Source: Fistulifera solaris
Taxonomy: Eukaryota > Bacillariophyta > Bacillariophyceae > Naviculales > Stauroneidaceae
DNA: 64,000 bases
Direction of reading: 5' to 3'
Assembly (NCBI GenBank): GCA_030295235.1
Contig: AP026141.1
Span: 310,001-374,000 of the forward strand
A program made the translations under genes and the position numbers. Positions 15,250 through 60,410 of the stretch are shown here, piece by piece. Each line of letters begins with the position of its first letter. Within the stretch, counting starts at the first letter, position 1. A model generated the notes under the pieces. It worked only from the letters and a program-made list of their open reading frames with translations. It had not been told where the DNA came from and did not search any database.

Positions 15250-15295
15250 ACTGTAGATTGATAGGAAAAAAGGGACGAAGGATGAATGAATAAAA

Positions 15296-15323: not shown

Positions 15324-15377
15324 TTAACAAAAAGAAAACGGAGATTGCGTTGAAATAATAATATCCTGCCCTTTTTG

Positions 15378-16460: not shown

Positions 16461-16928
16461 GGGGGTGTGTTGTTCAAGCCAAAGTACTGCAATCTTTCGT
16501 GGAGGAGAAACGTAGAATAGTTTGTTACTTACGGCAATCCTTTGTGCGAGAGGAAAGTCGTGCAGTGACTATAGTATTATACTACTACTCCGTAATGTTT
16601 TTTAAAAACTAAAAAAAACAAATCTGTACTACATCGAATCATTTCGAATGGTTGCGCCGTATTGTGGCGTAAAGAACGTTTCCTCCTTTAGGAATACTCG
16701 TGTGGGCACAAACGAATCATGAAAAAAAAAAAAAAAAAAAACAAGAGAGCCGAGCATTGCAAGCAGCGCATCCATCAACAACACAGGGTAGTTGGCAAAG
16801 CGTGTGCGGCTTTATGACTACAGTTATTCAGTCACGGGTCTGGTGACAGATAGTCCGTAATATGTTAGCGCTCCGTCGATCATTCGTTCTCGACGATTCA
16901 TAACGACTATTCTTAACATGCCAGTTAT
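16461..16928. other. Intergenic between convergent AIM24 genes
   Basis: 3' flanks of paralogues B and C. Contains a 20-base A run at 16722-16741. No coding sequence seen. Confidence 0.6.
16722..16741. repeat. A20 homopolymer
   Basis: Uninterrupted run of about 20 A in the convergent 3' region; its exact length may be uncertain given the indel pattern elsewhere in the window. Confidence 0.7.
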
Positions 16929-18077
16929 CTAAGCATCCGTGGGTCCATCGACATTCCCACTATTATTGCTATCCTGTTGTATCACCTTGGGTGGGAACAA
17001 TTTTCGCATCTTGTCAATGCTGAGGGATTGAATCCAGATTTTGCCCGGTCCGGTCACTGCGCGAAAGAAAGAATAGCGTGTTATCACACGGATTACCAAC
17101 AACACTCCACACTACAGTATTCACTCACTCGTGGTGTTGAATATTCCTTCTCCCGCACAACAACACGCCATCCCCGATCCAATGAATTGCACATCCATCG
17201 TGACGGAGGATTCGAAACACAAGATACTATCGGTATCCACTAATATCTTTTCCCCCGCGGCTAAATTCTGAATACAGTGTAAGATACGATGAACCGTATA
17301 GATACGAGGATGACTCTTTCCTTCCTTACGTACTTTTTGTAAGACGGTCCCCATGGCCATCAAAAACGCCCATTCTCCATGACTGAGTGTTTGCACAATC
17401 AAATCGACACCACTGCAACAGACGCCGGCAATGCTTTCGGCGGGATTGAATCCGGCCCCCACATCCGTCACCAATTCCCCGATGGGCACCGTGGAACCGA
17501 GAAAGGAATCGCGCATGGCAATGATTTTTCCCGACGGACAGGAAGGCATATGAATGGGAACAATGACGCCGGGATAATCCGGTGTCAAGGCAACTGCCGA
17601 GAAAAGAGAAGAGTGAGTGAGTGAGTCAATGGATGAAAGGGAACGAAGGATCAAAGTCTCTCTTGTTACTCAACTGTAACCATCGTGCGTCGTGCTTTCA
17701 TTGGTGTAAGTGGCTTGAAACAAGGAACCCCCACCCGCCAATCGCCCAAACGTTTTCCCAAATCCTCCGAATTCGACTTTCATTTTGACGTCGTTGCTCA
17801 TATACGCCATGGCCCCGGCAAAGCACATGACTTGACGTCCCGGTCGTAAGGGAATTTGCACAAACGGTGCATCCGTCCCCAACAATTCGTACACCGGTAA
17901 GCCGTCTGAGTACGTGGGAGGAGGAGGAGGCGACCACAATTCAAATCCGGCCAAGAAGGGTTGCGTGTGGGGTTCTATTGCCGTAGCCAGGGGTACATTG
18001 TTGTTGTCATAATACGCAGAATCATCCTTCTTCGGATCGTTCAAGGCCATGGCAAAGGGAGAAGAATAGTCGGTCAT
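16929..18077 (-). CDS. AIM24-family protein, paralogue C
   Basis: 312 residues; exons 18077-17675, 17593-17335, 17277-17129 and 17056-16929. Total is an exact codon multiple. The 57-bp intron 17278-17334 is in frame. Family blocks: VQIPLRPGRQVMCFAGAMAY, LTPDYPGVIVPI, IIAMRDSFLGSTVPIGELVT, GEWAFLMAMGTVLQK joined to NLAAGEKILVDTDSILCF, CCCAGEGIFNTT joined to MTGPGKIWIQSLSIDKM. The first donor (GTTGAG) is non-standard beyond GT and was chosen because it restores the block before LTPDYPG in line with paralogues A and B. N-terminus is Pro-rich (SPPPPPTYSD). It is on the opposite strand from A and B. Role unknown. Confidence 0.82.
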
Positions 18078-18511
18078 TTTTTATTGATAAATTAGTTGTT
18101 TTTGTATCCAATGTTGAGGGTGATTCTACAATTCCAGATGCTATGCTAGACAGATGCCGATATATGCAATGCAACAAGAGGCTTCTGCGATCTTTTGCGA
18201 AGTAGTGCCACACAAAGAGTAGTCGCACCGATGAATGCCAGTACTTCATACAAATAAATTTGGTACCGCTGCGCTTTGTCGGTACGTATGGTTGTACATC
18301 TTGTTTTATAGTAGAACCTAACACGTTTTACAAATTGAGTGTCGCACCACTACTGACTCCCTCTGCCTCTCGTCGTCCGCGCCGTTTTGTTGTATTGCAA
18401 TGCAACAGTTCATTCTTCTTGTCGAAGAGACCATCATCTTTCCTTTTCTCTTCTTGCATTCTTTATTTTCTCTTCTCTTTCTATTCATTTTACTTATTTT
18501 AGACAGCAAAT
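18078..18511. other. Divergent promoter region of AIM24-C and RBX1
   Basis: 434 bp, no gene. A long pyrimidine-rich stretch (about 18410-18505) leads into the RBX1 start. Confidence 0.55.
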
Positions 18512-26215: not shown

Positions 26216-26845
26216 GATATGGTCGAAGGAAATGATGGAAGCAAAGGAATGAATGGATTTTGAGTTTTTTATTCTTTATTTCCGATGCACTTTTTTCGTC
26301 GCCGTGATGGATGGACGCGGTGAAGGTGCAGCATCTACGCTAGAGTTGAGGCTCACTGGTTTCCTCCCTAAACTTCTCCGTGTCGCAGGACGTTCCATTG
26401 ACAGTCACTTTTGCAGTGGGGCTTTACAAGGACGGTTTCACTATCTAACTCTTGACTATGGCTCAACCGAGTATCCTTAGTACTCATTGAGTTTATAGAA
26501 TCTTTCCGATATGCCTTCCTGGCGCAATACTTAGCTTAAGTAACCTAATTACCAACATAGGTAACAAAATTAGATACACGAAGAACGCCTAACTATCCCT
26601 GTAGTAGGGAATTTTTGGGAAACAAAGACACGGCAATCGTACTGTAAACTAACGAGTCGTATAGAGCTTGTTTTGAAAAATTCATTGTCTTCCATTGAAC
26701 GTCGATCCGTCCGATGCGGTGAAATTTTGGTGCACTTCGTCATCCTTCTTGCTGCTCATCTTTTGTTCCGAGTACTTTACCTTTGGGTGGACCGGATATT
26801 GTAGATTGTAACGAGCATTAAAGAGGATCAATCCATTTCAAAAGA
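26216..26845. other. Intergenic, divergent promoter region of ELP1 and the sulfotransferase-like gene
   Basis: 630 bp with no supported gene. A 75-codon plus frame starting near 26253 has no domain and is not called. Confidence 0.5.
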
Positions 26846-28228
26846 ATGAAGAATCAGGCCGAACGGTCGTCACTGGTCGCGGGCCGCTTTTGGTTGTATT
26901 GCTTTGCGATTACCATTACCGTGGCCATGTTCACGGGGCATTATCTCTTGTCGAATTATCGCTTGCAACCGGTAGGGATCCTGTTGGAAGATAGTACGGC
27001 CGAAGAAGCGCCGGTTGTAGTCGAAGAAGCTCCAGAAGCAGCATTACCGGAAGACGCGGAAGTCGCCATTGCAACGCCACCCGCAAAGCCACTCCTCGTA
27101 TTGCACGTCGGACCCGGAAAAACGGCTACCACCACCTTGCAAGTCGATTTGACAAGACCCTCCTATGAGGCGTGTTTGGCGGAAGATGATTATCTGTACG
27201 GAGGACGCTTTTATCTGAAACCATCACAAAATTCGGACGGAAAATGGATGGAAGGACCGGAATCGTTCTCGCCGCCACTGGAGACCTTGCGCGATATCTT
27301 GATACCGGCCAAGGCTCGGAATACCGTTTCGGAATGCAGTCCGACTCGTCCCAAGTGTTGGAAAGCCTTGCAACAACAGATTGACGACTCTGCCGGGGAT
27401 CATCACATTATACTGTCGGATGAACCGTTGGCGCTCCGGTGGACACCAGAGAATGCTAAACTGATGAAAGATGCCTTTCGGGACGTACGGGATATTCTGG
27501 TAGTCATTGGTTATCGAAGGTTCTTTGATTGGTTGCCATCGAGTATCTTTCAACGCAATCGGAAGCGCCTCGTGGATAAACATTGGCCCAGTCGAGGAGA
27601 ACTTGCCATGTTGGATCCACTGTGGCCACTTTTGGGGACATCGGCCGAAGCCTGGAAGGAGCGGCATTATACATTTACCGATTCCTTGGTTCAAGCTACA
27701 CAAGCGGCATCTTTGCCGCATCGCATTCTCAATATGCACGATCCAACAATGACAGTTTCGAGCCAATTCTTTTGTCAAGTACTACCGAGTGCCTCGAGTT
27801 GTTGTCAGCTCGCCGCGAATGCCACTTCTTCCACAATTATGAACATGCGAACCGAAGAACAAGTGCATCAATTGTATTTTGATACCATCACGACGGCGGC
27901 GGCCGCCAAAGGCTGGATCCACAAATCCAAATACAGTCGTCCGCAAATCCGAGAAGCCTTGAAAGAATATTATCACGCTCGTCCATTGAAACAGTGGTCC
28001 TTGTATTGTCCCACGGAACAACAATTGCAACTGCTCTATGATCAATCCTGGCGCATGGAACAAGAACTCATTATTGGGCCGACGGTAGATCCCGAATTTC
28101 GGTATCATTTAGAAGAAGAACATCGTTCCTCCTTTGAAGGCCGCGTGCGGGAGGGCGCTTTTGTCAACTCGATCTCAAGGCGTCTCTCGAAACCTTTCGT
28201 GACTTTTTTTCGCAAATATTCCAAATGA
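26846..28228 (+). CDS. Type II membrane sulfotransferase-like protein
   Basis: 460 residues, single exon. A short basic head is followed by one membrane segment (about residues 18-37, WLYCFAITITVAMFTGHYLL), giving Golgi type II topology. A Glu/Ala/Pro stem follows. The globular part opens with LLVLHVGPGKTATTTLQVDL, matching the 5'-phosphosulfate-binding P-loop of sulfotransferases (HVGxxKTGTTxLQ). A later segment DILVVIGYRRFFDWLPSSIF fits the 3'-phosphate strand-helix with its Arg and Ser. The likely reaction is PAPS-dependent sulfation of a glycan or protein in the Golgi; acceptor unknown. Diatom extracellular polymers are often sulfated, but the link is inference. No frame break. Confidence 0.66.
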   Translation: MKNQAERSSLVAGRFWLYCFAITITVAMFTGHYLLSNYRLQPVGILLEDSTAEEAPVVVEEAPEAALPEDAEVAIATPPAKPLLVLHVGPGKTATTTLQVDLTRPSYEACLAEDDYLYGGRFYLKPSQNSDGKWMEGPESFSPPLETLRDILIPAKARNTVSECSPTRPKCWKALQQQIDDSAGDHHIILSDEPLALRWTPENAKLMKDAFRDVRDILVVIGYRRFFDWLPSSIFQRNRKRLVDKHWPSRGELAMLDPLWPLLGTSAEAWKERHYTFTDSLVQATQAASLPHRILNMHDPTMTVSSQFFCQVLPSASSCCQLAANATSSTIMNMRTEEQVHQLYFDTITTAAAAKGWIHKSKYSRPQIREALKEYYHARPLKQWSLYCPTEQQLQLLYDQSWRMEQELIIGPTVDPEFRYHLEEEHRSSFEGRVREGAFVNSISRRLSKPFVTFFRKYSK

Positions 28229-28496
28229 GCGCTTGTATATATATACCGCTGGTTGTTATCCTTTATTTTGTTAAATGTTTTTATTAGAATTGCATATTTA
28301 TGTCTTGTTGACTGTCGAGATAGACTTTGAGACAACTAGATTAAAGTAATTATACTATTTTATTGACAACCCCTACGGAACGATTTTTCGAACATAACAA
28401 GAAGATCAAGCTACTGCATACGACAAAGATCACGATGGTAAAATTCGTTCATTCTGTGATTCCTCTATGAAAAACTTATTATCGAAAGGTGACTTA
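28229..28496. other. Convergent 3' intergenic stretch
   Basis: 268 bp of 3' flanks of the sulfotransferase-like gene and DUF6824 gene 1. AT-rich, nothing else seen. Confidence 0.5.
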
Positions 28497-29282
28497 TTAT
28501 AACCAGCGTCCAAAATCAAGGGGGTTCGAGTTGACCGAGGCTAAAATCTGCTCCAACGAAATATGAGGGACGGGAGGAGCGTGGAGCTGTTGCAACAAGA
28601 GACGTCGCAATGCCACCTTTCGTTCAATCTCGTGTTTCAACAATAGATTCGCCGCATCCGAGTACGCCTGCAGTTCACTGAGCGCACTCAAATGCAGATT
28701 ATTGTTGGCGATATTGTTGGTCGGCACGGGAGAACCCAATTGCGCCAATCCACTCGCCGCGGCCTCCAAATCCAGTCGCATGCGTTTCTTGATCGGTGCG
28801 GGAGAATTTTCGCGAGAAGATTCCGCGGAGGAATATTCACGACGTTTGCTGTCACGCATCACTTCGTAATACGGCAACACGTCCGGAGTTCGTTCGCGCA
28901 AACACTGCGAGGCCTTCTCTTGCGCTTTCTTGTCACACACTTCAATCCAGTCCAATTTGCTTTCATCCGCGCGTTGCAAAAATCGTCCCGGTGGATCCAG
29001 TTGCTTCCACATGTGCACCAATTCCCGAGCGACCTTGGGTTTGTCGACTTTCGAGGAAGCCAAATAACGCATTTTGTGTTGGTTCACGAGCTTGCGGAAC
29101 TGAATGTTCCCCACGTGATTGTACGTTCCCAAACCGCGTCCCAAAATCACGTCATGTTCTCCGAGCGGACGCGTTCCGTTCAATACGCGGCCTTCGACCA
29201 AGAAACCACGACGGCTTTGCGATTTCATTCCGGCGTCGTCTTGCGGTGCTTGAGAAGACAGGATAGTGTTGGAATCGAGCAT
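28497..29282 (-). CDS. DUF6824-domain protein, gene 1
   Basis: 261 residues, intronless, ATG 29282. DUF6824 domain at about residues 40-145: EHDVILGRGLGTYNHVGNIQ, FRKLVNQHKMRYLASSKVDK, PKVARELVHMWKQLDPPGRF, KKAQEKASQCLRERTPDVLP. The domain is common and expanded in diatoms; its conserved basic and aromatic residues have led to the idea of DNA binding, which is unproven. After it comes RREYSSAESSRENSPAPIKK and a helical tail with LLLKHEIERKVALRRLLLQQ, a possible dimer helix. PIKKRMRL may be a nuclear signal. Its paralogue lies 1.95 kb away on the other strand, head to head. Confidence 0.84.
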   Translation of the reverse strand: MLDSNTILSSQAPQDDAGMKSQSRRGFLVEGRVLNGTRPLGEHDVILGRGLGTYNHVGNIQFRKLVNQHKMRYLASSKVDKPKVARELVHMWKQLDPPGRFLQRADESKLDWIEVCDKKAQEKASQCLRERTPDVLPYYEVMRDSKRREYSSAESSRENSPAPIKKRMRLDLEAAASGLAQLGSPVPTNNIANNNLHLSALSELQAYSDAANLLLKHEIERKVALRRLLLQQLHAPPVPHISLEQILASVNSNPLDFGRWL

Positions 29283-31232
29283 GTTTTGAAACCAAACGCC
29301 AAAGAGAAAACGGCTGCCAAAATGTAAGATCCGTTCGTTGAAAAAGCGGCGGTGATTGCTATCAAAAGGCCTTTTTGCGAACCCGCCATCCGAGCGAACG
29401 TCACCTCGCCGCCAACGGATTCACGCATCCGCTACTGACATTACTACTGACAACAACGCCCAGTCCTTCCGATGAGGGAATCCAAATTACTTCAATCGTT
29501 AAAGTAGTTAGACACGTTTTAGTACCAGACCCACATAAGACACACACGATTTACGATTCGACATGGCGACCTTAAACCGAATGACTACTTCTTGTATGAT
29601 ACCACAATCATCCCCATTTGAACTTTTAATTATTTATGTCTCTATGTACTTTATGCAAATCGTGAATCGTACGTACAACGTACATTCCTCAATGAAGAAA
29701 ATTTGAACAACAGAAAACAGAACAACGCGAAGAAGATATACTTTTCACTAATACTAAGATACTAACTACAGTTTCGAAATTCGAAATTCGAAATTCGAAA
29801 TGCAGAAGAGAACCGCTGTCGCTGAGCGCTGAGTAAATTTTTGTGGACTTTAAGACTCGATACGTAATGTACAACTGTTTCAAGTTTCAAAAGGATTCAC
29901 TACCTTGCCACTTGCCACTACGGCTCGGTGTCGCGTGCGTTGAACCCCGAGTGCCCGAGGCCCGAGGCCCGAGGTGTGTCGTCCAAAATCCAAAATCCGA
30001 ACAATCCAAATTTGAATCACTTGTTGCTTGTTGCTTTTGTTTTTGGAACGTAATTCCTGGCGCCGGGCGCCGGCCTTATTGCTACGTATGTCGGAATCGC
30101 GGATGGCGGATTGCGGAGAGCTTGGAGGTTATTGTATAGAGCGTTCCAGTAGAACTCCTTCTCGCATCGTTCCAGGAGCTACGACTACGAACGTACGAAG
30201 TACGAAGCAAGAATCAGATGAGTCGGTGACGTTGTATGTCGCTGCCACGGTCCATGTCGAACACTCGTCTTTGTACTGTCGTTGACCAGAGAAGCGGAAA
30301 AGCTTCTTCTGTGCCAGGTGACCTGTGCAACAGGCTCTTTTTTTCTCCGTGCGCGATTCAATCGGGATACAGGACTGAAACCCCTTTGCTATTCAGAACC
30401 TTATTGTAAAAAGCGCTGGGACGGAACAAGGACGGAACGTCAGACGAAAATGAAAACATAACACTAAGATTAGGATTAAAAACAAGGCTCTCGACCCCTC
30501 GCTTCGAATCTAGCTAGAGGTAATGCAATTTGAGTTTGGTTCTTCACTTATCGAGGACTAATCATCATTTACGATCTACCAAGAAAGAAGACGCATGTAA
30601 GCACGGATGTAAGGGCATTGATAAGCCGAACTATGATATAGATCGCCTTTTACCTCTAGCACCATCGACGCGTTTTCTTTTTACATTATAATCGTTCTCG
30701 TATTCATAGGCTCGTAGGAACAAAATAGAAAGGAAGCACAGTAACTCTCTAGTAGTCAGATTTGAAAAATAAATTTACCATTCCCGACAGCGCACTAAAG
30801 AAGAGATCATGGGTCGCCCCCCTTAGTTTATTCGCGGCAGCGCATCTTTCGCCTCTCCGTTGTACAGGCTATGCCACAGTACAATGTCCGAAGTCCCTCC
30901 GCTTAACGCAAACCAACGCCCAACGAAACACCGTGGCCGAAAAGTCCACCGCACCGGAACTCGACTATGATTGAAGTAGTAGGATGAGAAATCGACGCGG
31001 ATTTTGGGTACTTTTGCGTGAGAGCTTTCTCTTTGCAGATTTTCCATCCGAGAGAATGACCGTCGTTTCTGTGCGACCAAAACCATGTTGTTGACAAGAA
31101 ACGAACGAGCACCTGGATAATAACAATCAATAGTATTATCATTCATCTCCTTCGTTCCTCTTTCTCTCCTTCTATAATCTCCTCAAGAAAAGGCGACTTT
31201 CTCCTTGCGGTTAGAGAAAGGAGAGCCTGTAC
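29283..31232. other. Large intergenic region between two divergent DUF6824 genes
   Basis: 1.95 kb. I find no gene I can support on either strand. It contains a TCGAAAT heptamer array (29774-29801) and a short GC-rich CCCGAGG array near 29945-29972. It is long for this gene-dense window. Confidence 0.5.
29774..29801. repeat. TCGAAAT heptamer array, four units
   Basis: Four perfect head-to-tail TCGAAAT units; the junctions create TTCGAA palindromes. Confidence 0.85.
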
Positions 31233-33199
31233 ATGTCCGTGCAAATTGACGTTGCCAACTCGCAACGAAAGATGAGCCGCCCATTGTCTCCGGAAGCGGA
31301 TTTATCGAACAATTCCGAAGACGAACTCGATTTGCACGGAGAGGCCATTGTTGCTCCTACATCTCATGATGTATTGCTCGGGAGGTACGTCGCGAGTGAA
31401 TGAAGCAAGAAGGAAACAAAACGACAAATTTGGACGCCTTCTTTTCCCCAATTGCACTTCAACAATTACTCACCCTGTATTTCTTCGCACCCTCCCTTCT
31501 TTCTCACTTTAATAACCCGTATCTTTCTCTCTTTATTCATTCACTAACTTCTTTACAGAGGCGGTGGAACCAACAATCACAGCGGCAACATTAAATTCCG
31601 TCAACTCGTTAACGAACACAAGATCCGGTATTTGGCCTGCAGTAAAGTCGATAAACCCAAAGTCGCCCGCGATGTCGTCGAATTGTGGAAGAAAATGACA
31701 CCACCGGGTCGATTCTTGGCCCGAGAAACAAAAAAGGGGTCGTCGATGAAAGCGCCCGACAATGTATGGTACGAAGTCGCCGATAAGAAGGCTCGAGAAA
31801 AGGCTTCGCAATGCTTACGAGAACGGACACCGGATGTGTTGCCGTATATCAAGCAACTGCGGGAACAGCAAGATGCGATTACGGAAAAGGGGGTTTCTAT
31901 GGTGCAGCATCAACTGCAGATGCAGCAACAACGACAAGAGCAGTATCCGGTGCAGATGGTGGGTTCCATGGGGAAATGGTGATGATGCAGCAGCTGCCCC
32001 AGCAGCAGTATTCCATGGACGGCATGACAGCCGTGCGACGGACCTCCTTGCCGGAACCGCAGCACCAGCAATCGCTGGCCATGGTAACTCCCAGCCCGAC
32101 TGGCTACTTGCAACAGCGTTCCGTGTCGATCGGACCGCCGTTGCAACAGCAACGTTCCATGTCCTTGGGACACGGAATACCATCTTCCAATGGTGCCACC
32201 GTTTATTTGAGTAACAACGGAGCTATACAACAGATGCCACCCGGTCGTTATCATGTTGTACAAAACGGGGAAGTGACCCCACAAACGGTCGTTTCTCAAG
32301 AATATCATCATCCACAAATGATGCCAGGACAACAAACCCATTTCGTGATACAGTCCGCGCCACCATCCCAGCAACAAGTCCTTTCGATGCAACAGATGCC
32401 CTTTCAACAACCGCAAATGATGGCGCGGATGTCGCAGCCGATGATGCCACAGCAAATGCAGCAACCCCAAATGCCACCACCATCTCAAATGATGATGACA
32501 TCCCAAATGCCGGGACAAATACTTCCCGGACAACAAAACGCGGTGACCGCCAATTCCTTATTTGCAGAAGAACCGGAACCGTATTCGGTACAAAGTGATC
32601 CTTTGTTCTCCATGCACATCGCGACGCCCAGTCGCCAGAAGGGTCCGGAAAAAACGACGGAAGAAACGAAAACGAAAGAATCACGAAGGAAAGGGAAGAG
32701 TCCTCCTTCTACCAAGACGGCATTGAAGTCCGAACGCCGCGCCCCCGATCGCACCGCCACCGCCGCTTCCCTCATGTCGATTGGGACCGATATCGATGCG
32801 GGTGGCGAACTGACCATTGAAGAATACCGCAAACAGTTGCAGCAGTATTTGGAAAACAATAATAATAATCAAGCGAATGACGACGATGACAACAATTCGG
32901 ATCTTGAAGATGATTGGGAAAAAGAACGGGAAAAGAATTTGCGGGAATCGCGGGGCGTCGGACGGAACGTGTCGGGCATGTCGTTTGTTTCCTCGAAAAC
33001 GGCCAAGAGTGGACAATCGATGGTGTCGGGGATTTCCAGTGGGATCTTTTCGACGGACCTTTCGGCCGACATGAGCGATGACAAGAATAAAGGAAATAGT
33101 TTGAACAATTCGAATCGATCCTTGTGCAGCAATCTGTCGCTGATGTCGGAATTGACGGATCTTTCGGAAAATATTGACAATTTGACACTGGATGATTGA
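31233..33199 (+). CDS. DUF6824-domain protein, gene 2, Gln/Met-rich
   Basis: 597 residues; exons 31233-31384 and 31559-33199 with a GTACGT..CAG intron inside the domain (LLG to RGGG). DUF6824 domain: SHDVLLG joined to RGGGTNNHSGNIKFRQ, YLACSKVDKPKVARDVVELW, KKAREKASQCLRERTPDVLP. A frame break at the G run 31970-31973 (one base short) lies just after it. The middle is rich in Gln, Met and Pro (QQPQMMARMSQPMMPQQMQQ), like an activation domain. The C-terminus is acidic and Ser/Asn-rich with NNNNNQANDDDDNNSDLEDD and ends in LTDLSENIDNLTLDD. Role as a nuclear regulator is inference. Gene 1 lacks the intron and the Gln-rich part. Confidence 0.85.
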
Positions 33200-33516
33200 G
33201 TTGTTTTGTTATTTGGAGGCTCTTTTATATGATTTGAATCAATTAGACACATCTTATTTTGATTTGGTTAAGTCTTTGTAAGAATGAATAGCGTCGCACT
33301 ATATTCAAAGCGTTCGTAGAAATCCTAGGCCTAACATAGCTAGCACGAGGACGGTCGACGGACGTGTCATTTTTATTGGCTTCTCGCTTCTCGCGCCGCC
33401 GTCCACGAGTCACGTTTGCACCGCATTATTGCTTGGCTGCATTGCATTGCATTGCATTGCAATACAGAGGAAGTCGTTTCCTTCACACAGCGCCCTGCTC
33501 TTCCTCTTATTGTATC
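33200..33516. other. Intergenic upstream of the J-domain gene
   Basis: 317 bp without a gene. Contains a GCATT pentamer array at about 33438-33461. Confidence 0.5.
33438..33461. repeat. GCATT pentamer microsatellite
   Basis: About five GCATT units 55 bp upstream of the J-domain gene start. Confidence 0.8.
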
Positions 33517-35614
33517 ATGTCATTAACCACACGTCTTTTTTGTACTGGTCGCACCGGCCGTCCTTCCACCGGCGGATGCGGTCGACCGTGAATTTTATGA
33601 GATTTTGGGTCTACCGCGTCAAGCTACTTTGGAAGAAATTAAAAAAGCCTATCGACAGAAATCACTCGCATTGCATCCCGACAAAGTCGCCCAACGGCGC
33701 GACACGAATGCAGCCGCGGCCGCGGCGGAATATGAGCTCGTGCAAGAAGCGTACGCGGCGCTCCACGAGCATCGACCACTTTATCATGCCGTGCAGTGTT
33801 CCGTCGCACGGTATCGATTCTTCCAATCGGGGGCGTCGCACAATCCCGCCGCCTTGTACGAACAGTTGACGCAAGCGTCGTGTTGGAATCGGACCAAATT
33901 GGTGATGGTAGCGGTGTTATTTGGCTTCCTGCTGTTGTTGCAACCCATTTTAGTGGCGGCCAAAGTCAATGCGGTAGTCCGTCACGAAAATAATAAGCAA
34001 GACGAGGATCCCATTTTGGATGTGTCGTGGATGGTCTTGTTGATTCCGTGGTGGTTATTGAATGCAATCTATTGGCTCCTGATGGTCGCACTGTTGGTTT
34101 TGGAAAGCACCAAAGCCCTAGCGGCCGTCATCGGACAAACGTGTTGGATCGTGGGATGCATCTTACTGGCGTTGGCCTGGGATGATCCACCCACGAATAA
34201 CTGGCACAAAGTGGCGATTCCATTTTATTTGTGGCAAATTACTCACATTGTGACGGCTGTCTTTGACATTCGTGATATCCGAACGGACAATGATCGAATG
34301 ATTTCACCGGAGCAGTTACAAGAAGTGGCGGGCACTGACGCGACGGAAGAGGATTTGATGGAATTGGCGCAAGACTATATTGTTGTTACGGTCGATCATG
34401 CTGAAGTGGCGGCGGCCATTCATCTAATTAATACGACCAGCGAAGAATCCTTGACGAATGCCGAAATTGAAGAATTGAAGATTCACATGTCACCCGAGTA
34501 CCAAAGGAACGAACAAATCATTCAATATCATACGGAGCAGATCGCCAAACATTGTTTGGTCGACTTGCCCTTCATTGCGCTCGTAGCGAGTCAATTGGAT
34601 GGAAACATTGATACGTCCTGGTGGGTGGTCTTTTTGCCCCTTTTGATCTATTTGGGGGGCAAGTTGGTGCAGTCGTTTTGCACTTGTTGTTTCGCGTTGA
34701 GTCCGGATCCGGGGGTCATTTTGGTTGGTGATGATGAAGTTGCGAACCCAGAGGGTCCCGAAGACGAGAAGGCTAACGAGGACAAAGCCACAGCGGACGA
34801 TAATAACGAAAAAGCTGCTGCCAGTGCTTTGAACGACGGAACTATGCCCTCGCATCAAGATGCCCTGTCGAACGATCACGTAACGAATGGGGTCGCTACA
34901 TTGACGAAAACGGAAGAAAGCTTAGAAAAGATTGAGGATCTGCCAAAGAGCCTTGCCGAAGAAGAACCGTCCACGACATTCGCTGATGCATCCGGGGACA
35001 TTGAAGACTTTAACGTGCGAAGCGAGACACCAGCCGAGGGCGAGACCACGGCCGAGGAAAGCAAAGCGGATGGGCCGAAGATCGACGAGGAAACGTATCG
35101 CGCGTGGCAGTCGGCGTATGCGAGAGCCGAGGAAAGTGAACTGGAAAAGCAAGCCAAAGCACACTCGACATGTTGCCTTGTATCGTTTCAGCTCATTATG
35201 GTTTGTTTGGTGGTTGGCAAGTTAGACGAGGACTACGAAGCCGATGGCGACATTAGTTACAATTCATTTTGGATATTGTTCCCTATCTTCCTGATCGTTG
35301 GTCTGCTTCTGCTCTGCTTCTCATGCCTGATCTACGGCGCGGGGTCGGAAGGTGCCCACGCCGGTGGGGCTAAGCCAAACAATGTTGAAAGTGGAAATGC
35401 TGACACGAGTGGAAAGGAAGAAAACAAAAGCCCGACTATATTTGTACCTCCTCCGCCGCTTTCGGAAAACAGCACAGAAAACAAACGAGCCGATACTACA
35501 CTACATCCTGAGTCACTCGATAGCCAGGCAACTACGGATGAAACGACCAACGATGAGAACAAAACGAATCTTGGGGATGTAGAATCGAAAGAAGACATGA
35601 ACGATCTCGACTGA
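33517..35614 (+). CDS. J-domain protein fused to a TMEM185A-like multipass membrane region
   Basis: 698 residues if the T run 33536-33541 is one base too long; this joins a hydrophobic leader (ATG 33517, VLVAPAVLPPADA) to the J domain. J domain: FYEILGLPRQATLEEIKKAY, then SLALHPDK with the HPD motif needed to stimulate Hsp70. About seven membrane segments follow, including LVMVAVLFGFLLLLQPILVA and MVLLIPWWLLNAIYWLLMVA. Two segments, SQLDGNIDTSWWVVFLPLLI and ISYNSFWILFPIFLIVGLLL, look like the paired repeats of TMEM185A (LDG..WWVVFxPL). A long acidic Glu/Ala/Thr-rich loop lies between them. Probable ER or vesicle membrane co-chaperone; the TMEM185 assignment is by eye. Alternative start: downstream of the break, losing the leader. 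Confidence 0.8.
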
Positions 35615-36043
35615 TCGTTTTTGCTCCCGCCTGGATCCGCCGCTTTGTTTGATTGCCAATATTGCAACAAGAGGGCCTGTGCACATTGTACTTGCCGCTC
35701 ACGCGTACTGTTCGATCATCCTCTGATTGCTTCGCCACGACGAGCACAGGTCTTCTAAACCTTAGTATTTTCATTTGTATATTTCGCATGCCTTATTTGT
35801 CTAGAGCAAGAGACTCGCTAACTTGGTACTGTACGTTAGTCAAAGTAGCATGCGTAAGAATTCAAGCAAGTGAACTCGTGACAAAGTAATGTTGAATTAT
35901 CCAGTAGACAAGCTACACAGTTGCAAGCCTGGTCACGAATAATAATCGTGTCTATCTATAAGCTTAAAGAAGAAACGAGATGACCTGTATCTTTTGGAGC
36001 TATTCAAATGCAACTTCTTACAGAGAGATAACCTGGCCACCCC
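35615..36043. other. Convergent 3' intergenic stretch
   Basis: 429 bp between the J-domain gene and the FCP gene. No feature seen. Confidence 0.5.
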
Positions 36044-36708
36044 TTAGACAGTAGGGTATCCCAAAAAGGCGTTCAGAACGTAAGGCTCACCGGTCAAAGT
36101 TTCGTGAACCATGAGTCCCAAGATACCCATTTGAGCAGCACGTCCGTTGTTCAATTCGATAGCACGCTTCTCTAGCTTTTCTTCCTCCGAAGCATTCCAC
36201 TTGAACATACCGTTACGAAGATCACCAGGGAATTCCGCCTTACCCGCTCGATCTGTCATGATACCGACCTCCAACGCACCGACAATGGCGACTGTTACGG
36301 CCAAGCCGGCCGGAGGGATCGCCGTCAGTGCTTTCAGTCCCGACGGGTACTCTTCGCAGCCAGGGAAGCGGTATCCGGCCGTGGTGACCATGTGGCCGAC
36401 TATTGGGAAGAAACAAAATTGGATGAGGATCGATCGGCAAACAAGATTTGGAAAGTTCCTTCTTCAGGTTACTTACCAATAGCATTCATGGCAATGCGAC
36501 CATGCTTGATTTCAGCGTATCGAAGTTTGTTGAACTTTTCTTGATCCGCTTCATCCAAGAAACCCAACGGGTCCCAAAAGTCGAGGGGAGGCTGAACGCC
36601 AAGCTCGTTTTCGAAAGAAGCCGAAAGAGCAGACGCCTTAGTGGCTTGCTGAGCAGGAGCGAAGGCGGCAACGCCGGAAAGAGCAGCTAGGGCGGCAATG
36701 GTCTTCAT
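36044..36708 (-). CDS. Fucoxanthin-chlorophyll a/c light-harvesting protein (Lhcf type)
   Basis: 195 residues; exons 36708-36477 and 36399-36044, GTAAGT..TAG, phase 1. Plastid presequence MKTIAALAALSGVAAF with APAQQ after the cleavage point, close to the textbook ASAFAP motif. Mature part: SFENELGVQPPLDFWDPLGF, helix 1 KLRYAEIKHGRIAMNAIVGH with the Glu/Arg and His chlorophyll ligands, helix 2 GLAVTVAIVGALEVGIM, and helix 3 KRAIELNNGRAAQMGILGLM with its Glu, Asn and Arg. Ends in the typical short hydrophobic tail. It is a thylakoid antenna protein binding chlorophyll a/c and fucoxanthin. Length is usual for Lhcf. Single gene here, no tandem copy. Confidence 0.95.
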
Positions 36709-37324
36709 GGTGGATCTTGGTTGAGAAAAAAGTGCGCATTCCATTATCACGGTATATCCATCGCGTGTTTTCTCGCTAAGGATACCCCTTCAACCAAGCA
36801 ATGAATAGTGGTACGACATAGTGATCAACAGGATTATGACTTATGACAACGGAGTACAAAGCGACGGATTTAGCTACTTGTAGCGGCATAGTCGTAATTC
36901 ACCTGGTATTCCAACTTTCAATCGTTTTTCCCAATTCCCGAATGAATAGGACCGAGGACCGAGGGTAACTTACAAGTTACAAGATAAACACTTCTAGCCT
37001 TCCAGCTTGGTCATCGATTAGTACTTTGTCTCCTCGGATGCAGTCAAGTTTGTCACAAGCATTACTGTCTACCAATTCGGCAGCTACATCATTCGAGATG
37101 GCAACCTAGATTGTTCTTTTTAAGCAAGTACGAATGCGATAAATCATTGCAAAGGGCTAATACACAACTGACCAAAAGAGCTTCAACTTAGAAACAGAAA
37201 TGCGTGCTGTATGAGATAACGTTGTCTTATGATGAGATGATCTCGTTCTATATAAACTATGGTACGACAGGAAGGCATTTAACGGCCCTTCCATTCTATG
37301 AAATTCTGTGTGGTATGTGTATGT
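36709..37324. other. FCP promoter region and intergenic stretch
   Basis: 616 bp. No coding sequence supported. The part next to the FCP start is likely its light-regulated promoter; I see no diagnostic motif. Confidence 0.5.
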
Positions 37325-38245
37325 TCAGGAGCATTGAGAGCTGGTAGCAACGGGCCATTTTCCGCCAAAACAACCAGATACTTCTTCGACTGTGCCGTCT
37401 CGGTAGGTCAGAGAAAAAGAAGTCGCCCCCGATTGTCCATCCAACTTGGTGCCCCAAGTGGCGCCATTGACCCGGCTCAAATTGTAGCGCTTTCCTCCCA
37501 GAGTCATGGAGACGGCTCGGACACCTTCGTGTCCACCGGCTACCAAAACTTTGGTGTAATACGCGTTGTCACCGGTCAGTACTACCACGGTGGGCGGTGT
37601 ATAAATGCAATCGACTCGTTTGAAGTAAACAGGAAAGATACCACCAACGGCGTTTCCCGTAATTTCCTCAAATACCTCCGGCTGGCAGTCAAAGCCCATA
37701 ATATCGCCATGGTTGATCACTTGGATGGTGGCTTTTCCGGCCCGGCCAACATTGGTGGCCTTTTCTCCCGTGTACGTTAATTCGTAGCAGCTGCCACAAT
37801 CGAGACCGTCTTGGAACATGGCGATCGGAACCGCACAGACTCGTGTGCCATTGAATGCGTACGGCTCTAACCAGCTACTGCCCTTGGCAATGGAGGGGTC
37901 CTGTGTCAGTTGACAAGAGCCTGGTGGTATGGCGTATCCGGGCGTCTGCCATCTTGTTAAGAGTCCTTTGGCTGAAGAGCAGAAGAATCATATGTCAGCG
38001 TCCAAAGTGCGCAGAAAGCTATGAAATGACCCGCGACCGAGAGACTTACTGGTACCAGCAGGAATACTGATTTCATCTTGTCCAGGGACGCTGTTGCCTG
38101 TATCGTTGTCGGAATTACTCGTATCGTCGTCGCGAGTGCTGGTCAACCCGCAGGCGCCTTGGAGCCATCGCTCCGCATGACATTGAGGCAAGCCGAACAG
38201 CAAGAAAGCCAAGGCTGCGTTTAAGAGTCGGTTTGTTCTCGTCAT
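37325..38245 (-). CDS. Secreted expansin-like protein
   Basis: 280 residues; exons 38245-38050 and 37971-37325, GTAAGT..CAG, phase 1, total a codon multiple. Signal peptide LLNAALAFLLFGLPQCHA. A Ser/Asp linker is followed by a double-psi beta barrel: YAFNGTRVCAVPIAMFQDGL, DCGSCYELTYTGEKATNVGR, KATIQVINHGDIMGFDCQPE and VFEEITGNAVGGIFPVYFKR. The order Cys-Gly-Ser-Cys-Tyr, GFD (HFD in plants) and G-I-xP-V-x-x-x-R-V-x-C is expansin-type. A second beta-sandwich follows (VVVLTGDNAYYTKVLVAGGH, GQSGATSFSLTYRDG), as in expansin domain 2. Expansins loosen cellulose networks without cleaving them. A cell-wall cellulose target is not obvious in a diatom, so the role is open. GH45 or barwin-only proteins are alternatives, but the two-domain layout favours expansin. 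Confidence 0.75.
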
Positions 38246-39568
38246 GATGGAATATTAATGGAGAAGTTATGAAAGGATTGGAAGGATGGGATAATGATTA
38301 TTATTTTATGATGACGAAGGTCGATCATTGTTGCCGTGGGGGAAGAATCAGTCGAAAAAATGAAGGGTTGTGTTGGGCTTTTGTATTTCGTTAACAAGTG
38401 GCGGTCGAATGACCTCCCCGTAAACTTTCAAAGAGAAACAGTGCTTCGCGTTGTCCGGTTGTATGCGAAAAACAGTGCGAACAACGGTCGAATCAATCTT
38501 GAACTCGGTGTTGAATGGAGAGTTGATCGTGGTCCGACAAATAAGCCCACCGCCTTTTTACTTATGCCCTGCCAGCGGAAAACACTCTGGTTCGGAACCC
38601 GAATGCGGACCATAACCCCGCCGATCACGAATCACGAATGAGCCAGAACGTTTGCCTATGTTTTTTATTGATGGAAAGACACGGACTAAGTTATACTTTC
38701 TAGTTTTGACAACAGCAAGCCATTGCAGCTAGCAAATCGCAATGCATCCCATCTAGAGACAAAAATCAATAGAAGATCTTGTGAGAGAAAGTGAAGCGAA
38801 AATAGATGGTTTCCGTTGCAACCCACATTTTTCCCTTTCGTCCTAAACATCGCATTTGCAACTGCATCGATGAAAGTGATGAAACTTTTTGATTAAGTTC
38901 ATCAAGATCATTATTATTGAAAGTGACGATGCAGCGAACTCGCGGTGTCAGATGTTCGGAGTGCGATTTGTGACAATGCAAAAGCTTCGCATCCAAAAGA
39001 TAATAGTTGTTGGATTTTACAACGGACTGAAAAACCATTTATTACGCAAGGATTCGAACTCCCAGCAATAGAACAAAACCTGGTAAATGATTATTATTTG
39101 TGTTTACGACGGGTTATTTCCTTGGTTTACGATTGTTAGTTGCATCCGTGACAGGATTTTATGATGACTCCTCGGGTTCTCGGGTTTCATTGAGTACAGA
39201 ACGTGTTCTTTACTCAACACGTTATAAATACTACTGTCTACTGTATGTAATTGACAGTACTTTGACTGTGGTTCGGCTGCTTAAGTAGTTCAAAGCCTTT
39301 GCGACAGCCTTCGGACACACTCTTCGCCATACTCAACGCTCAACGCATTTACGACGCGCCGGTTGCACGGTCTGACGCACTTCTCGCGGCCCGAACATGT
39401 TCTTACTTCCATTTTACATTTTACTCGATCAACATTCTGTGGACTTCAAGCATCACTTGCTGCGTCTTGTCTTACCCTTTTTCAATTAGAATTCACACAC
39501 TCGAGAAAAGTTTAAATTCCAAAGTATATTAGCACCTCGGGATTGGGGCGCGAAACACCACAAATAAA
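38246..39568. other. Intergenic region, 1.3 kb
   Basis: No gene I can support. A plus-strand frame at 38336-38641 has no ATG at its start and no domain. A tRNA-like T-arm string near 39047-39065 was examined and rejected. Confidence 0.45.
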
Positions 39569-40545
39569 ATGAGAACATTCAGCACAATATCAGTGATGCT
39601 CGCGATCGGCCTGCCGAGCGCGTACGCCTTCTCGCTAGGACGAGTGATAGTCAACTATTATTATTATTACAAGGCCTCGAAAGACGGCAAAACGCCATAC
39701 AACCGCTCTCGTCAACACCCAGCACAGAAAGTACAAACGTCCGAGGCGACACTGCCGGCAACCCGCAATTTCCTCAACCACAACCGGCGGATGTGGGGTT
39801 AGCCGACCGATCTCCGCCACCCGAGGTAGATGTGGAACCCACCAAAAAGATTTGGAATGTGGCATCACCCGTGACGGTTCAGGGACGATCCCTGAAAACG
39901 TGGGCGTTTCCCGATCGCGACATTGATAAGGTTCATTTGGTGATGAAAACCGACGGTCGACCGTTGCTCGCCAACGTAGATTTATGGCAGGGGCCACGGA
40001 ATACGCCGCAACGAATCAGTGTCTATACCGAAGACGGAGATGTTCGTCCCTTTTCGGCACTGATCGCTACGACGGGAATTGGGTCGAACGTCGTTCGCGT
40101 CGTGAATGCGGCCACATTGGAATTTCCCCTCAAAGCCTGCATAGTCCCCAGCACCGCTGGCGGACCGTTACCGGCGATGCAACTCCAATCACCGATCGTG
40201 ATCCAGGGAGGTTCCTTACGGACATGGTCGTTCGAGGCACCGACGAAAAGTGTCATGGTATTGATCAAAACCGATGGTCGACCGATGAATGCCCGCATCG
40301 AATTATTGCAGGGTCCCAATACCATCAAGCAAGTCATGGAGCTGTATACGGAGGATGGTGTCGAACGTCCATTTTTCGCGGTCATGGAGACTCCGGGAAC
40401 GGGGAACGTTGTGCGCGTTGTCAATACAGCTCCCATGGAATTTCCGCTCACCGCCAGCGTCGAGCCCTTCGAGACGGAAGTTCCCGGTGCCGGGCTTCCG
40501 CAAAACGGGATCTTGGGCGGGAATATTCCCAAAGTACAATGGTGA
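39569..40545 (+). CDS. Plastid-targeted protein with two tandem beta-rich domains, unknown function
   Basis: 325 residues counting one frame break at the A run 39689-39692 (one base short). Presequence MRTFSTISVMLAIGLPSAYAF ends in the AYAF plastid motif. The mature protein has a Pro/Gln linker (QFPQPQPADV) and two copies of a domain of about 95 residues. Copy 1: VQGRSLKTWAFPDRDIDKVH, MKTDGRPLLANVDLWQGP, YTEDGDVRPFSALIATTG, NVVRVVNAATLEFPL. Copy 2: IQGGSLRTWSFEAPTKSVMV, IKTDGRPMNARIELLQGP, YTEDGVERPFFAVMETPG, NVVRVVNTAPMEFPL. I do not recognise a named family. The pattern (W-x-F start, L-x-GP-x, Y-x-E-D-G-x-x-R-PF) suggests a compact beta-sandwich. Function unknown. Confidence 0.72.
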
Positions 40546-40762
40546 TGAATGAAACTTTATTCAATGTTCGGGGATAGACTCGTTGCATGAAGATAGCGTG
40601 TGTCCAATATAAGTAGTAGTAATTATATATCTATGCGTTTCGGCTCAAGTTAGTTGCGGTTGTTGTTCGTTGAAGAAAATTGAGTCTACAAAAGGCTTGC
40701 TCTAAGTAAATACTTGAATGAATTGAAGTCTTACACTTTGTGTGATCTGTCAAAGAGGGCGC

Positions 40763-41311
40763 TCAAGGTAGTAATGTCAGGAGAAGATCCTTGATATCGT
40801 CCTTACTCAATCCTTGGAGCGAAATGATTTCCACGGCTTTCTCTTTGAGTTTCTCGTACGACAGTTTACCGGATGATAACGTTTCGTCCAACAACAAAAC
40901 TTCCATGGGAGGACGGTTGAAAAGTGACATTAAGTCTTTTTCGGTAGACGACCGGGTGATAGCTTGCAATCGTTTGTCTCCGCCTTTTTCGTTCCGTAGC
41001 TTTTCCCATTCCTCTTTGTCTTCCAATAGTCGATCCAATTCATTGGTAAAATGCGGATGCGTCGCCGTTGATTTGACGAGAACCGCCGCTTGATACGGAT
41101 TGGTTCTTCGTTTGACGGCTAAATACGTTTGGCAGCATTTTTGGCAGTCATTTGGCTGGGGTAACAAGTCACATGTCGAACACGCCAGCCGCATCGGATC
41201 AAATCCCTTGGAACGACATTCACGAACATCGAGCCTTCTGTCAGGGTCGGCGGCAGAGCCGAAGTGAATAGAAGTTGCCAAAACACAAAATAAAATCAGG
41301 AAAGTTAACAT
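40763..41311 (-). CDS. Selenoprotein F (Sep15)-like protein without the redox motif
   Basis: 182 residues, single exon, start ATG 41311 (the longer frame begins at TTG). Signal peptide LTFLILFCVLATSIHFGSAA. The Cys-rich UGGT-binding domain of Sep15 is clear: CRSKGFDPMRLACSTCDLLP, then DCQKCCQTYL. In Sep15 a thioredoxin-like domain with CxU/CxC follows; here the aligned stretch reads YQAAVLVKSTATHPHFTNEL with no Cys or Sec, and no in-frame TGA. A Lys/Glu-rich helical insert and LMSLFNRPPMEVLLLDET follow. Probably an ER-lumen partner of the glycoprotein folding sensor that lost oxidoreductase function; this is inference. It could also be a separate Sep15-like subfamily. Confidence 0.74.
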   Translation of the reverse strand: MLTFLILFCVLATSIHFGSAADPDRRLDVRECRSKGFDPMRLACSTCDLLPQPNDCQKCCQTYLAVKRRTNPYQAAVLVKSTATHPHFTNELDRLLEDKEEWEKLRNEKGGDKRLQAITRSSTEKDLMSLFNRPPMEVLLLDETLSSGKLSYEKLKEKAVEIISLQGLSKDDIKDLLLTLLP

Positions 41312-56598: not shown

Positions 56599-59500
56599 CT
56601 AACCATTAACTACTAGCATTCTCTCTTTCTCTTCCGCCGCCATCTTTTCGAACCTCTGTCTGACGTCGGCATCGCATTCCTTCCACATTGTGGCAATACG
56701 CTTCGACGCCTCCCCGAAAGGCAGTTTCTCGCCAGTTTTTTCGTCGATCATCTGAGGACGAACTTCTTTGCAAAAATAACATGTAGGCCGACGGAGATCT
56801 CACTGTTGCTATTTTGTTGTTTGCGAACTCTTCTGCTGTGGCACTCTTCGAATGCACCTCTTGTTGTAGAGCGGTGCGCTCACCAGTGCCGGATCTGTTT
56901 CCTTGACTGTGTTGCTGCATTTCGCGGTCGTACCTCTTTTGTCTTCTTCCGCTAGTTTTTCGTATTCCGAACGATCAGGTGTTACGGCCCAAAGTCGCGC
57001 CAACTCTTTGGAAATATCTCCGAGTTTACGGCCCTCTGTCGCGACTTCTGGTCGTTTCGCCGCACAAAAGTGCAGGTATGCTGAAAGTGGCCGCTTTGGC
57101 CCTTCATTAATTTTTGTTAATGACATCGTCATTCTCCTTGTTGGTTGCGAACCCTTTGATTCATTTAAAATCTTTTGACAGTCTTGTTCCCATCGCGCTC
57201 TCGCTTGAATGTATTCTTCCTTTGCCGTAGCGGCAAGCTCCAGATATATTTCTCTGTCGCTATCACCAAGCTCGGCCCACAATTTCGCCAGCTTTTTCGA
57301 TATCTCACCAAGCTTTGCCGTTGTCTCGGTGACTTCTCGTCTCTTTGCTGCACAAAAATGTAAATAAGCGGATAATGGTCGTTTCGGAGCTGTAGGCAGC
57401 ACAATACCCTTTGTCTTGCTGACTTTTGAAGATTTTCCGCCAGCACTTGTGCCATCCTTTTCTTTTATCAGATCCCAAGCCAAATCTAAAGGGATGCCCG
57501 ATGGATTTCCAGCATACTCAGCTGGTAGTTTGGCGTTAACTTTTTCCAATTTAGATAATTGCCGTATCGTCCTTTTTTGACTGCGACAACGTGCCCGTCC
57601 TTTTCGCCGAGCTCTGCAATTACTCCACGACTGCTTTTCGATTTTCCATTTATAATACCGTCCGTTACGACTCGAATTGCAACGTCGGTATCGACGGAAA
57701 GGACGTCGCCATCTTTTGGATCTAAAGAGACAAAAGAGTTGTTGTACTTGAGATAAGGTCCGTATGGTCCTATTGATGCCGTAATGGGCAAGTCCTCAAG
57801 TGTGCACACAGTTCGGGGTAGACTAACGTACCCCACCGCTTCTTCAAAAGTCAAACCAAGCATCTGGCTCAAATCCATATCTTCCGCGTCAGGATTCAAA
57901 TCGTCCAAGTCGCGCATTATTGCTTTTTGTCGAGGAAGTGAGTGCGTTGAGGAGTCCTCATCGTCGCCCAATTGCAGGTATGCCCCAAATCTGCCTGTTT
58001 TCAGGTAAATAGGTTTTCCGTTGTCAGGATGGTTGCCAAGTAAAAGTCCACCACCCTGACGTGCTGATAGAAGTGCTTTGAGAACCGAAGGGGTGATTGT
58101 CGACAAATCTGCGGCCATTCCTGCCGGTAGGGGCGCCGATGAAGGTTTGTCCGATCCATTTTGTGAAGCAAGCTGTACGTATGGACCCCATGGCCCAACA
58201 AATAAGCCCACGTCCTCTGTACCTTGCTCGCCATTGTCAACAAGAAGATTAGGTAAACGAGCTCTTCTTGCGTCATCCGCGGTCACCGTTTCGTCGATCC
58301 GCTTGACTTGGGCAGCCAGACCATTATCGCCGGCATAAAACTCATTTAAGTACTGTTTCCTATCCTCTTCTGAGTCAATCTCTCCTGAAGCAATCTGATC
58401 GAGCCGTTCCTCCATGCGCGCTGTGAAATCAGGATCGACATACGAAGGGCAGTGTTTTTCCAGAAGTGTGCACACAATAAAGGCTGTTAAGGACGGGACC
58501 ATGGGACCTCGAGCACCGCCACCAGTGAACTCATCTCCTCCAGCGGCCCTTACCGCACTGATGGCTGGGCCGCTGACCACCTTACGACTATTCCGAGGTG
58601 GCGAACTGGATGATGCAGGGCTGCCCACGTATGCACGATCACGCAAGATTTGAATAGTACTCGCGTAAGTACTTGGGCGGCCAACGCCGAGGGCCTCTAA
58701 TTCCTTTACGAAACTTGCTTCAGTATATCGTGGTGGAGGTTGAGTCTGATGATTGACAGCTGTCAAGTTGTGAGCTTGAATTTTTGACCCCTTTGAATTG
58801 GAGGCAATTGACCGTCGTCATCGTCATTGTTGTCGTCGACACGACCATAGGCTCGAGTGAATCCAGGATCCAACACAACGCTCCCGCTGGCACGAAAGTT
58901 AACGATCAAGCCGTCCTCCATGATACCTTCAATAATTGCAGTTGTTTGATTGGTTATTAGTGGAGGCATTCGACACGCAAGCGTTCTCCGATAAATAACT
59001 TGATAAAGTGAGCGTTCTACCTCTGACAGAGACAAATCGAGAAGGTCCGGTGCAATAAATCGTCCATCTGGTTGAATTGCGGGTCTGATTGCTTCATGGG
59101 CTTCCTGAGCAAACTTCGAGTCCTTTTTTCTTTTTCTTTGCAGCCTTATCGCTTCTGGAAACATGCTGATCAATTCCAAATTCATTAATGACGGTTTCTC
59201 TGATTACCGATTCAACGTCATCTGACAAGTGTGCAGAATCAGTGCGCATGTAAGATATTAAACCTTGTTCGTATAAACGTTGGGCTGCCCGCATCGTCTG
59301 CTGCACAGATAGCCCTAACCTTCTGACAGCGTCTTGTTGTAAAGTACTAGTTTTGTACGGCTCTGGTGGACTCGTTTGTCGAGGACGAGATTCGACCGTC
59401 TTAACTGCCCATTCGGAGGCATCCATCCATTCATGAACCCAGTTACTGGCGTTATCGATGTGAAGATGTATCCTTGACTCGTTTTCTAGATCTTTTGCAG

Positions 59501-60410
59501 AATTCGCAACTGGTGTTTCGCCGATCGACACTAGCTTTGCGTTGATTTGATTTTGGCTCTCATCAATGAATACGCCTGAAATGGATGCGTAATCTACAGA
59601 CTGAAACATCAAGCGTTCCCGCTCGCGCTGAACCGTCAATGCCATCCCAACGGACTGAACACGCCCAGCTGACAACCCAGGGGCGATCTTCTTCCATAGT
59701 ACTGGACTAACAGTGAAACCAGCGAGTCTGTCTAGTATTCTACGGGTCTCTTGAGCACGAACCAGGTGCGGATTGACATTTGTCGGCTTTTCTACTGCAG
59801 CAGAAATGGCGGTCGGCGTAATCTCTGTAAAGGTCACTCGTTCCATTTGCACATTCGGGTCCAGTACTTGTGTCAAATGCCACGCCATGGCTTCTCCCTC
59901 CCGATCAGGATCGGTGGCTAACAAAACCCTTTCTGCACTTGATGCGGCAGATCGCAATTGCGAAACAATTTTCTCTTTGCCCGGAATCAAAACATAGGAT
60001 GGTAAGTACGCTGCATTTCTCAAGTCAACCCCCGCCACCGGATACGGAAAATCGCCCTGATCATCGTTGACCTTTTTCTGTGACAAATCCCGAATGTGCC
60101 CCATACATGATAATACCTGGTAATCAAACGGCAAGCCTTTGTCTTCGACATACTTTGACAAGATCTTGGCTATCGTATTGCACTTGCTGGGTGACTCCAC
60201 AATAAGCAAACGGTACGGTCTCTCCTTTGTTCGCACAGAAGTGCTACTTTTACGGGCGTTTGCAAACAGAATAGTGACTGCATTACCAGGCAAACGGTAG
60301 GCCGTTCGGGCGAAAAATATTCTCGGCTGGTGAAAACTTGCTACCATGACAGCCGTATGTATCATCATGGTGAAGAAAAGGACGAATGCGCGGGAAATTA
60401 GGTATGCCAT
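56599..60410 (-). CDS. topA: Plastid DNA topoisomerase I (type IA) fused to three HMG boxes
   Basis: 1,270 residues counting five single-base breaks (59124-59129 extra, 58765-58766 short, 57541-57545 short, about 56933-56936 short, 56772-56776 extra); total then a codon multiple. Relaxes negatively supercoiled DNA through a 5'-phosphotyrosyl link. Presequence MMIHTAVMVASF followed by HQPR is plastid-type. TOPRIM: LLIVESPSKCNTIAK and LLATDPDREGEAMAWHL. Catalytic Tyr in LISYMRTDSAHLS. Then QTQPPPRYTEASFVKELEAL and GVGRPSTYA, followed by C-terminal repeats (GPWGPYVQL, GRFGAYLQLG, GPYGPYLKY, GRYGNYLNW) and NAKLPAEYAGNPSGIPLDLA. Beyond the usual end come three HMG boxes: PKRPLSAYLHFCAAKRREVT, PKRPLSAYLHFCAAKRPEVA and RSPSAYMLFCKEVRPQMIDE. 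No stop or splice boundary separates them. Bacterial enzymes end in zinc fingers, so the tail is new to me. Confidence 0.92.

Follow-up and report, generated by a model that had tools for sequence, protein, structure and literature searches.

The window analysed here is a 64,000-nucleotide stretch of the Fistulifera solaris genome (C38:310001-374000), drawn from an assembly of 51.7 Mb and 61 contigs in which many genes are present in contig pairs. On its minus strand we found a 3.8 kb coding stretch (60410..56599), opening with an ATG at 60410-60408 and closing with a TAG stop at 56601-56599. As read on this contig, a Toprim domain comes first, followed by a type IA topoisomerase core, then by the TopA repeats and finally by three HMG boxes, and the reading passes through three frames. 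A second copy on contig C39 (L021 5661-1842) shows the same layout, and the frame breaks were placed by aligning the two copies. In window positions, and in the order in which they are read, the features are:

60213..60410, minus strand: presequence (residues 1-66), with a hydrophobic stretch, VAS/F at residues 23-26 and then a basic segment free of acidic residues
59820..60209, minus strand: Toprim domain (residues 68-197), carrying VESPSK and DPDREGE (PF01751; unbroken frame 67.8 bits, stitched protein 65.8 bits)
58575..59774, minus strand: type IA core (residues 213-612) with GLSAGRVQS and YMRTDS (PF01131, 333.3 bits), crossing breaks 1 and 2
59124..59129, minus strand: frame break 1, an A6 run with one base too many, in C38 only
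58781..58785, minus strand: frame break 2, an A5 run (A6 in C39), in C38 only
57448..58502, minus strand: TopA C-terminal region (residues ~637-988) with Toprim_C_rpt repeats (PF13368, four stretches in the frame-0 piece and three in the stitched protein)
57541..57545, minus strand: frame break 3, an A5 run where the reading passes from the topoisomerase frame to that of the HMG boxes, common to C39
57187..57387, minus strand: HMG box 1 (PF00505, 56.4 bits; C38:367187-367387)
56897..57099, minus strand: HMG box 2 (PF00505, 36.8 bits for 56935-57099; the end of the box was set by hand), containing break 4
56937..56940, minus strand: frame break 4, an A4 run inside HMG box 2, common to C39
56602..56800, minus strand: HMG box 3 to the C-terminus (PF00505, 35.3 bits in the frame-2 piece), containing break 5
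56772..56776, minus strand: frame break 5, a T5 run inside HMG box 3, common to C39

Once the run lengths are changed at the breaks, each copy yields a protein in a single frame, of 1270 residues in C38 and 1273 in C39. Five Pfam families score above cut-off on the stitched C38 protein, including Toprim, Topoisom_bac (PF01131), Toprim_C_rpt (97.8 bits) and HMG_box, which reaches 132.8 bits over three tandem stretches against a cut-off of 25.4. The unbroken pieces taken alone score 163, 60 and 89 bits with Topoisom_bac, 68 with Toprim, 87 with Toprim_C_rpt, and 88 (boxes 1 and 2) and 35 (box 3) with HMG_box; the sixth such piece, in frame 1, has no Pfam match. The coordinates of the first-pass annotation are borne out, along with its Toprim domain, Topoisom_bac core with YMRTDS, C-terminal repeats and three HMG boxes. 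Its proposal of a topoisomerase–HMG fusion destined for the plastid is upheld as regards the domains and the type of presequence, provided that the breaks are consensus errors, and both copies have the fusion. Its remarks on a single open unit, on zinc fingers and on a recent duplication are not upheld. A literal single reading frame is ruled out, the reading occupying three frames with five breaks in single-base runs.

We take C38 and C39 to be homeologs, and PMC7859220 describes F. solaris as allodiploid. The two contigs are not colinear throughout: window positions 26422-41229 and 13485-18078 are inverted relative to C39. The C39 copy has six breaks, three of which match breaks 3-5 of C38 and three of which are its own. 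The three shared breaks differ in direction, two being one base short and one a base long. Introns behind the frame changes are ruled out, as there is no extra sequence and every break amounts to one base in a run. We then counted single-base homopolymer indels that distinguish the homeologs, taking runs of at least 4 bases with a local identity no lower than 0.75, wherever the window and C39 align in one and the same direction. There were 4 in the 3.8 kb of the TopA-HMG gene against 16 in 28.0 kb of the other window ORFs, or 3 against 9 at a local identity of 0.85 or more. The rate in the gene is thus about twice that of the background, which consists of stop-to-stop ORFs at least 180 residues long, the TopA-HMG gene left out and not all of them proven genes. 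The phase of substitutions further reveals conserved coding stretches with a frame change in one homeolog alone, e.g., near 3694 and 46838. In both TOP3-like pairs and in the HU pair, described below, one copy is intact and the other broken. Separately, single-base indels between the homeologs were seen within long window ORFs at 3644, 10072, 46905 and other positions. The companion F. pelliculosa assembly carries ONT in its name, according to PMC12159174. The breaks in the TopA-HMG gene are probably due to assembly error, as homopolymer indels also break further long ORFs in the window; frame breaks being common in the assembly, they are best read as consensus errors. Thus, we infer that the five single-base breaks of C38 and the six of C39 are assembly errors. 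The shared breaks are the weak point of this reading: as errors they would need a cause in the sequence context or cross-polishing between the copies, and we found proof of neither. Any protein derived from this assembly is worth checking for run-length errors.

The topoisomerase part is of the bacterial type. The TIGR01051 (topA_bact) model scores 584.9 bits on the stitched TopA part against an equivalog cut-off of 456.4, and stays under that cut-off on single unbroken pieces (360.4 bits on the first). DPDREGE and YMRTDS, which we take to be the catalytic acidic motif of the Toprim domain and the motif of the active-site tyrosine, are both present in the unbroken first frame. Matches to type IA enzymes occur at six places in the genome, forming three homeolog pairs; testing one copy of each of the other two pairs showed that on C13 to be TOP3-alpha-like and that on C6 to be TOP3-beta-like. 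TopA-HMG is thus the only bacterial-type TopA found in the F. solaris genome. Matches were present in 95 of the 98 cyanobacterial genomes sampled, the best at 275 bits and 46% identity. The best PDB chain scored 228 bits and the one Nitrospira genome 192 bits; to the extent that scores from separate searches can be compared, this suggests a cyanobacterial affinity of the diatom TopA. The cyanobacterial TopAs (TIGR01051) share the core, the motifs and the Toprim_C_rpt repeats with the diatom protein, and 30 of them align to it at 35-38% identity from residue 68 or slightly earlier to residues 962-1002. Three bacterial TopAs were found in genome_contigs, and phage records gave 40 TopA relatives, all 40 below 60% identity. 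The red alga Cyanidioschyzon merolae offers a close parallel: PMC3914683 describes its CMI252C as a plastid type IA TopA of cyanobacterial origin, localised to the plastid by GFP, and relates the enzyme of green plants to alpha-proteobacterial homologs.

What follows the last TopA repeat differs between the diatom and the cyanobacteria. In 29 of the 30 cyanobacterial TopAs we found a Lys/Ser/Thr-rich stretch past the last repeat; the remaining one, L052, is cut at that point. The cyanobacterial loci end 1.5 kb from the match, leaving by subtraction 5-42 unseen residues in 26 of the 30 and 68-72 in four, one of which, L043, is complete in L033 and ends in a K/S/T tail. Strictly speaking, these incomplete ends leave room for an HMG box in three of the TopAs, while the other 27 have none. 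Thus, the HMG boxes occupy the place of a basic tail, and not that of zinc fingers as had been proposed. A cyanobacterial donor of the HMG tail is unsupported: HMG_box was detected in one of 98 genomes, at a borderline 25.1 bits and with one stop inside the match. The nearest HMG paralog in the F. solaris genome beyond the homeolog is so distant (39.9 bits, 31% identity) that it identifies no donor. Boxes 1 and 2 do share their start, PKRPLSAYLHFCAAKR, as noted at the first pass. In each copy, however, the 16 residues concerned are all identical while only 3 of the 16 codons are, which points to an old duplication under constraint rather than the recent one first suggested. Over their length boxes 1 and 2 are 53-54% identical, and box 3 is 35-41% identical to both.

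With pI values of 9.1 and 9.3 the HMG part is basic, and the best solved-structure matches of boxes 1-2 are HMGB1 (E 2.3e-15) and TFAM (E 8.2e-12). In helix 1, SAY is followed by L in boxes 1 and 2 and by M in box 3 (boxes 2 and 3 placed by motif); the L of box 1, presumably the residue that wedges into DNA, aligns with the L of TFAM SSYLRF. An AlphaFold model of boxes 1-2, computed from a two-row alignment only, is mostly helical, but its mean pLDDT of 46.4 is too low for use. HMGB1 and TFAM/Abf2 likewise carry tandem HMG boxes, but the diatom tail departs from them in being fused to an enzyme, in having three boxes, in lacking an acidic tail and in its association with a plastid-type presequence. 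PMC13108849 names Abf2 in yeast and TFAM in mammals as packagers of mitochondrial DNA. Other clusters of three HMG_box matches lie at C40:387235-387777, C41:354688-355230, C27:267139-267941 and C29:251984-252786 of the same genome, none with a type IA topoisomerase match nearby.

As annotated earlier, the N-terminus appears to be of the plastid type; it has a hydrophobic signal-like segment followed by VAS/F. Residue counts show no acidic residues at positions 26-60 in either copy and a net charge of +7 over 26-65. MVASFHQPR is identical between the homeologs, although the presequence as a whole evolves fast (Ka/Ks 0.63). PMC4329603 gives as criteria for import into diatom plastids a signal peptide, F at +1 (W, Y and L being allowed too), and a transit peptide with few acidic residues and a net positive charge; judged by eye and by residue counts, the presequence appears to fit them. 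An HU-family gene elsewhere in the nuclear genome (G000:C9:1195512-1195778; L029, ORF from 1222, 185 aa) also has a plastid-type presequence, MRLSLVLVAVCLSVADAFVRG, with the motif VADA/F. It is separate from TopA-HMG, and its homeolog on C10 is frame-shifted. The HU fold is unrelated to the HMG box. HU-like proteins are among the plastid nucleoid proteins of algae covered in PMC4154389; in F. solaris the HU-like protein comes from its own gene. This separate gene implies that plastid packaging need not depend on the HMG tail, which is more likely a guide for the topoisomerase than the sole packer. With the best sampled TopAs being cyanobacterial and the C. merolae enzyme plastid-localised, a role of TopA-HMG in the plastid nucleoid is, by analogy, plausible.

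The evidence tying the topoisomerase to the HMG boxes comes from homology across the junction, from the position of start codons, from the pattern of substitutions and from the matching layout of the homeolog. An HMM of the 30 cyanobacterial TopAs (L043, L045-L073) matches the stitched protein up to model position 864 of 866 with 650.8 bits; staying in the topoisomerase frame until its stop codon, the match ends at 824 with 634.3 bits, a loss of 16.5 bits. On the stitched protein, the best Toprim_C_rpt match (residues 937-988) straddles break 3 at 957/958. Neither copy has an in-frame ATG ahead of box 1 in the HMG frame, the first being that of MTMS between boxes 1 and 2 in both, and thus, barring an unseen spliced exon, box 1 is readable only from upstream. 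Together, the TopA homology running over the break and the lack of an ATG before box 1 tie the boxes to TopA. Between the homeologs, Ka/Ks rises from 0.085 ahead of break 3 to 0.415 past it, where 38.5 of 208.8 synonymous and 60.5 of 730.2 nonsynonymous sites have changed (Fisher p = 6e-5) and third positions account for 48 of the 99 changes (p = 0.006). Synonymous and nonsynonymous changes also differ for the three boxes combined (p = 0.001), for box 3 alone (Ka/Ks 0.19, p = 0.009) and for box 2 (p = 0.047), whereas the constraint on box 1 alone is not significant (p = 0.26). Purifying selection therefore acts on both the TopA part and the part after break 3, and it is weaker on the latter.

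Thus, the fusion is very probably real, and an architecture of TopA plus HMG boxes behind a plastid-type presequence, present in both homeologs, is well supported when the breaks are taken as consensus errors. We regard it as probable that the locus encodes one nuclear product of ~1270 residues, a cyanobacterial-like type IA plastid DNA topoisomerase I with three eukaryotic HMG boxes. Were the breaks real, the topoisomerase would end at the frame-0 stop at 57488-57486 and the HMG part would be a dead or separate remnant, as might be suspected from the occurrence of the break at 57541-57545 and the two later ones in both homeologs, and from the weaker constraint on the HMG part. However, inactivation shared from before the homeolog split predicts a Ka/Ks near 1 and not the value found after break 3. 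Box 3, reached only after most if not all of the shared breaks, is itself constrained, and the homology across the junction and the ATG-less box 1 point the same way, leaving the remnant quite improbable. Alternatively, at least one shared break could be real, with the frame restored by programmed frameshifting or by slippage during transcription; one gene would then give both a short TopA and a long TopA-HMG. The breaks are indeed conserved and lie in A/T runs, and the one between the domains would yield TopA with and without the tail. Yet there are three sites with opposite directions, all of which must shift, and the breaks confined to one homeolog (two in C38, three in C39 and others in the window) look alike and are best read as errors. 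Moreover, the run at 57541-57545 and the bases upstream of it presumably do not form, in the frame concerned, a slippery heptamer of the standard kind. We consider such recoding highly improbable, the remotest of the alternatives weighed here.

Accepting the fused protein, we envisage that the bipartite presequence would import TopA-HMG into the plastid, where the enzyme would relax negatively supercoiled DNA. The tail, if it behaves like HMGB and TFAM, would bind DNA without strong sequence preference and favour bent or crossed DNA, which may keep the enzyme on the nucleoid DNA and help to bend and compact it. By gaining three HMG boxes in the diatom lineage, plastid topoisomerase I might then have become a relaxase and an architectural protein in one chain, a counterpart of TFAM through which a single protein would control both compaction and superhelicity; we put this forward tentatively, as a possibility somewhat short of even. 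HMG boxes also contact proteins, and the fusion could be real and plastid-targeted with its boxes contacting proteins or RNA instead of bending DNA, a part that tails or SWIB domains may play in other TopAs. The C-terminal regions of TopAs vary, and the C. trachomatis TopA bears a C-terminal SWIB domain, the exact role of which is described as unsettled in PMC12445093. Against such a role in the diatom speak the basic character of the HMG part and the L or M after SAY, presumably the wedge position, and we consider it unlikely.

Among the open-licence papers listed for the subject, those on diatoms and plastid nucleoids included, we found no description of a topoisomerase–HMG box fusion in titles or abstract openings; the passages on HMG and topoisomerase in PMC4154389 and PMC13108849 contain no such fusion. 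The initial claim that there is no described equivalent agrees with this literature, F. solaris being the only diatom genome covered. Scans of viral_contigs with three queries confirmed no relatives of the fusion, and none of the HMG part were found among plasmids; as these collections contain viral, plasmid or prokaryotic sequence, they do not show that algae lack the fusion. TopA-HMG very probably has an unusual architecture and is most likely a plastid TopA whose tail is HMGB-like: DNA-bending HMG boxes, known from the packaging of nuclear and mitochondrial DNA, appear from their sequence to be joined to a bacterial-type enzyme that untwists chloroplast DNA. Links between DNA architecture and topology usually run between separate proteins. 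If our reading is true, an endosymbiont-type enzyme with an acquired eukaryotic chromatin module would be working inside the plastid, and the fused form would let one gene serve to test how bending proteins steer a topoisomerase. It would also open access to the plastid nucleoid of diatoms, about which little is known and in which an HU-like protein is likely to be found too. The nearest analogue that we found is the chlamydial TopA-SWIB (PMC12445093), in which the TopA C-terminus likewise carries a domain of eukaryotic chromatin proteins; it differs in being bacterial and in having SWIB rather than HMG. Residues 1-986, the stitched TopA part, score 351 bits with the corresponding model, NF004966, which is below its cut-off of 868.
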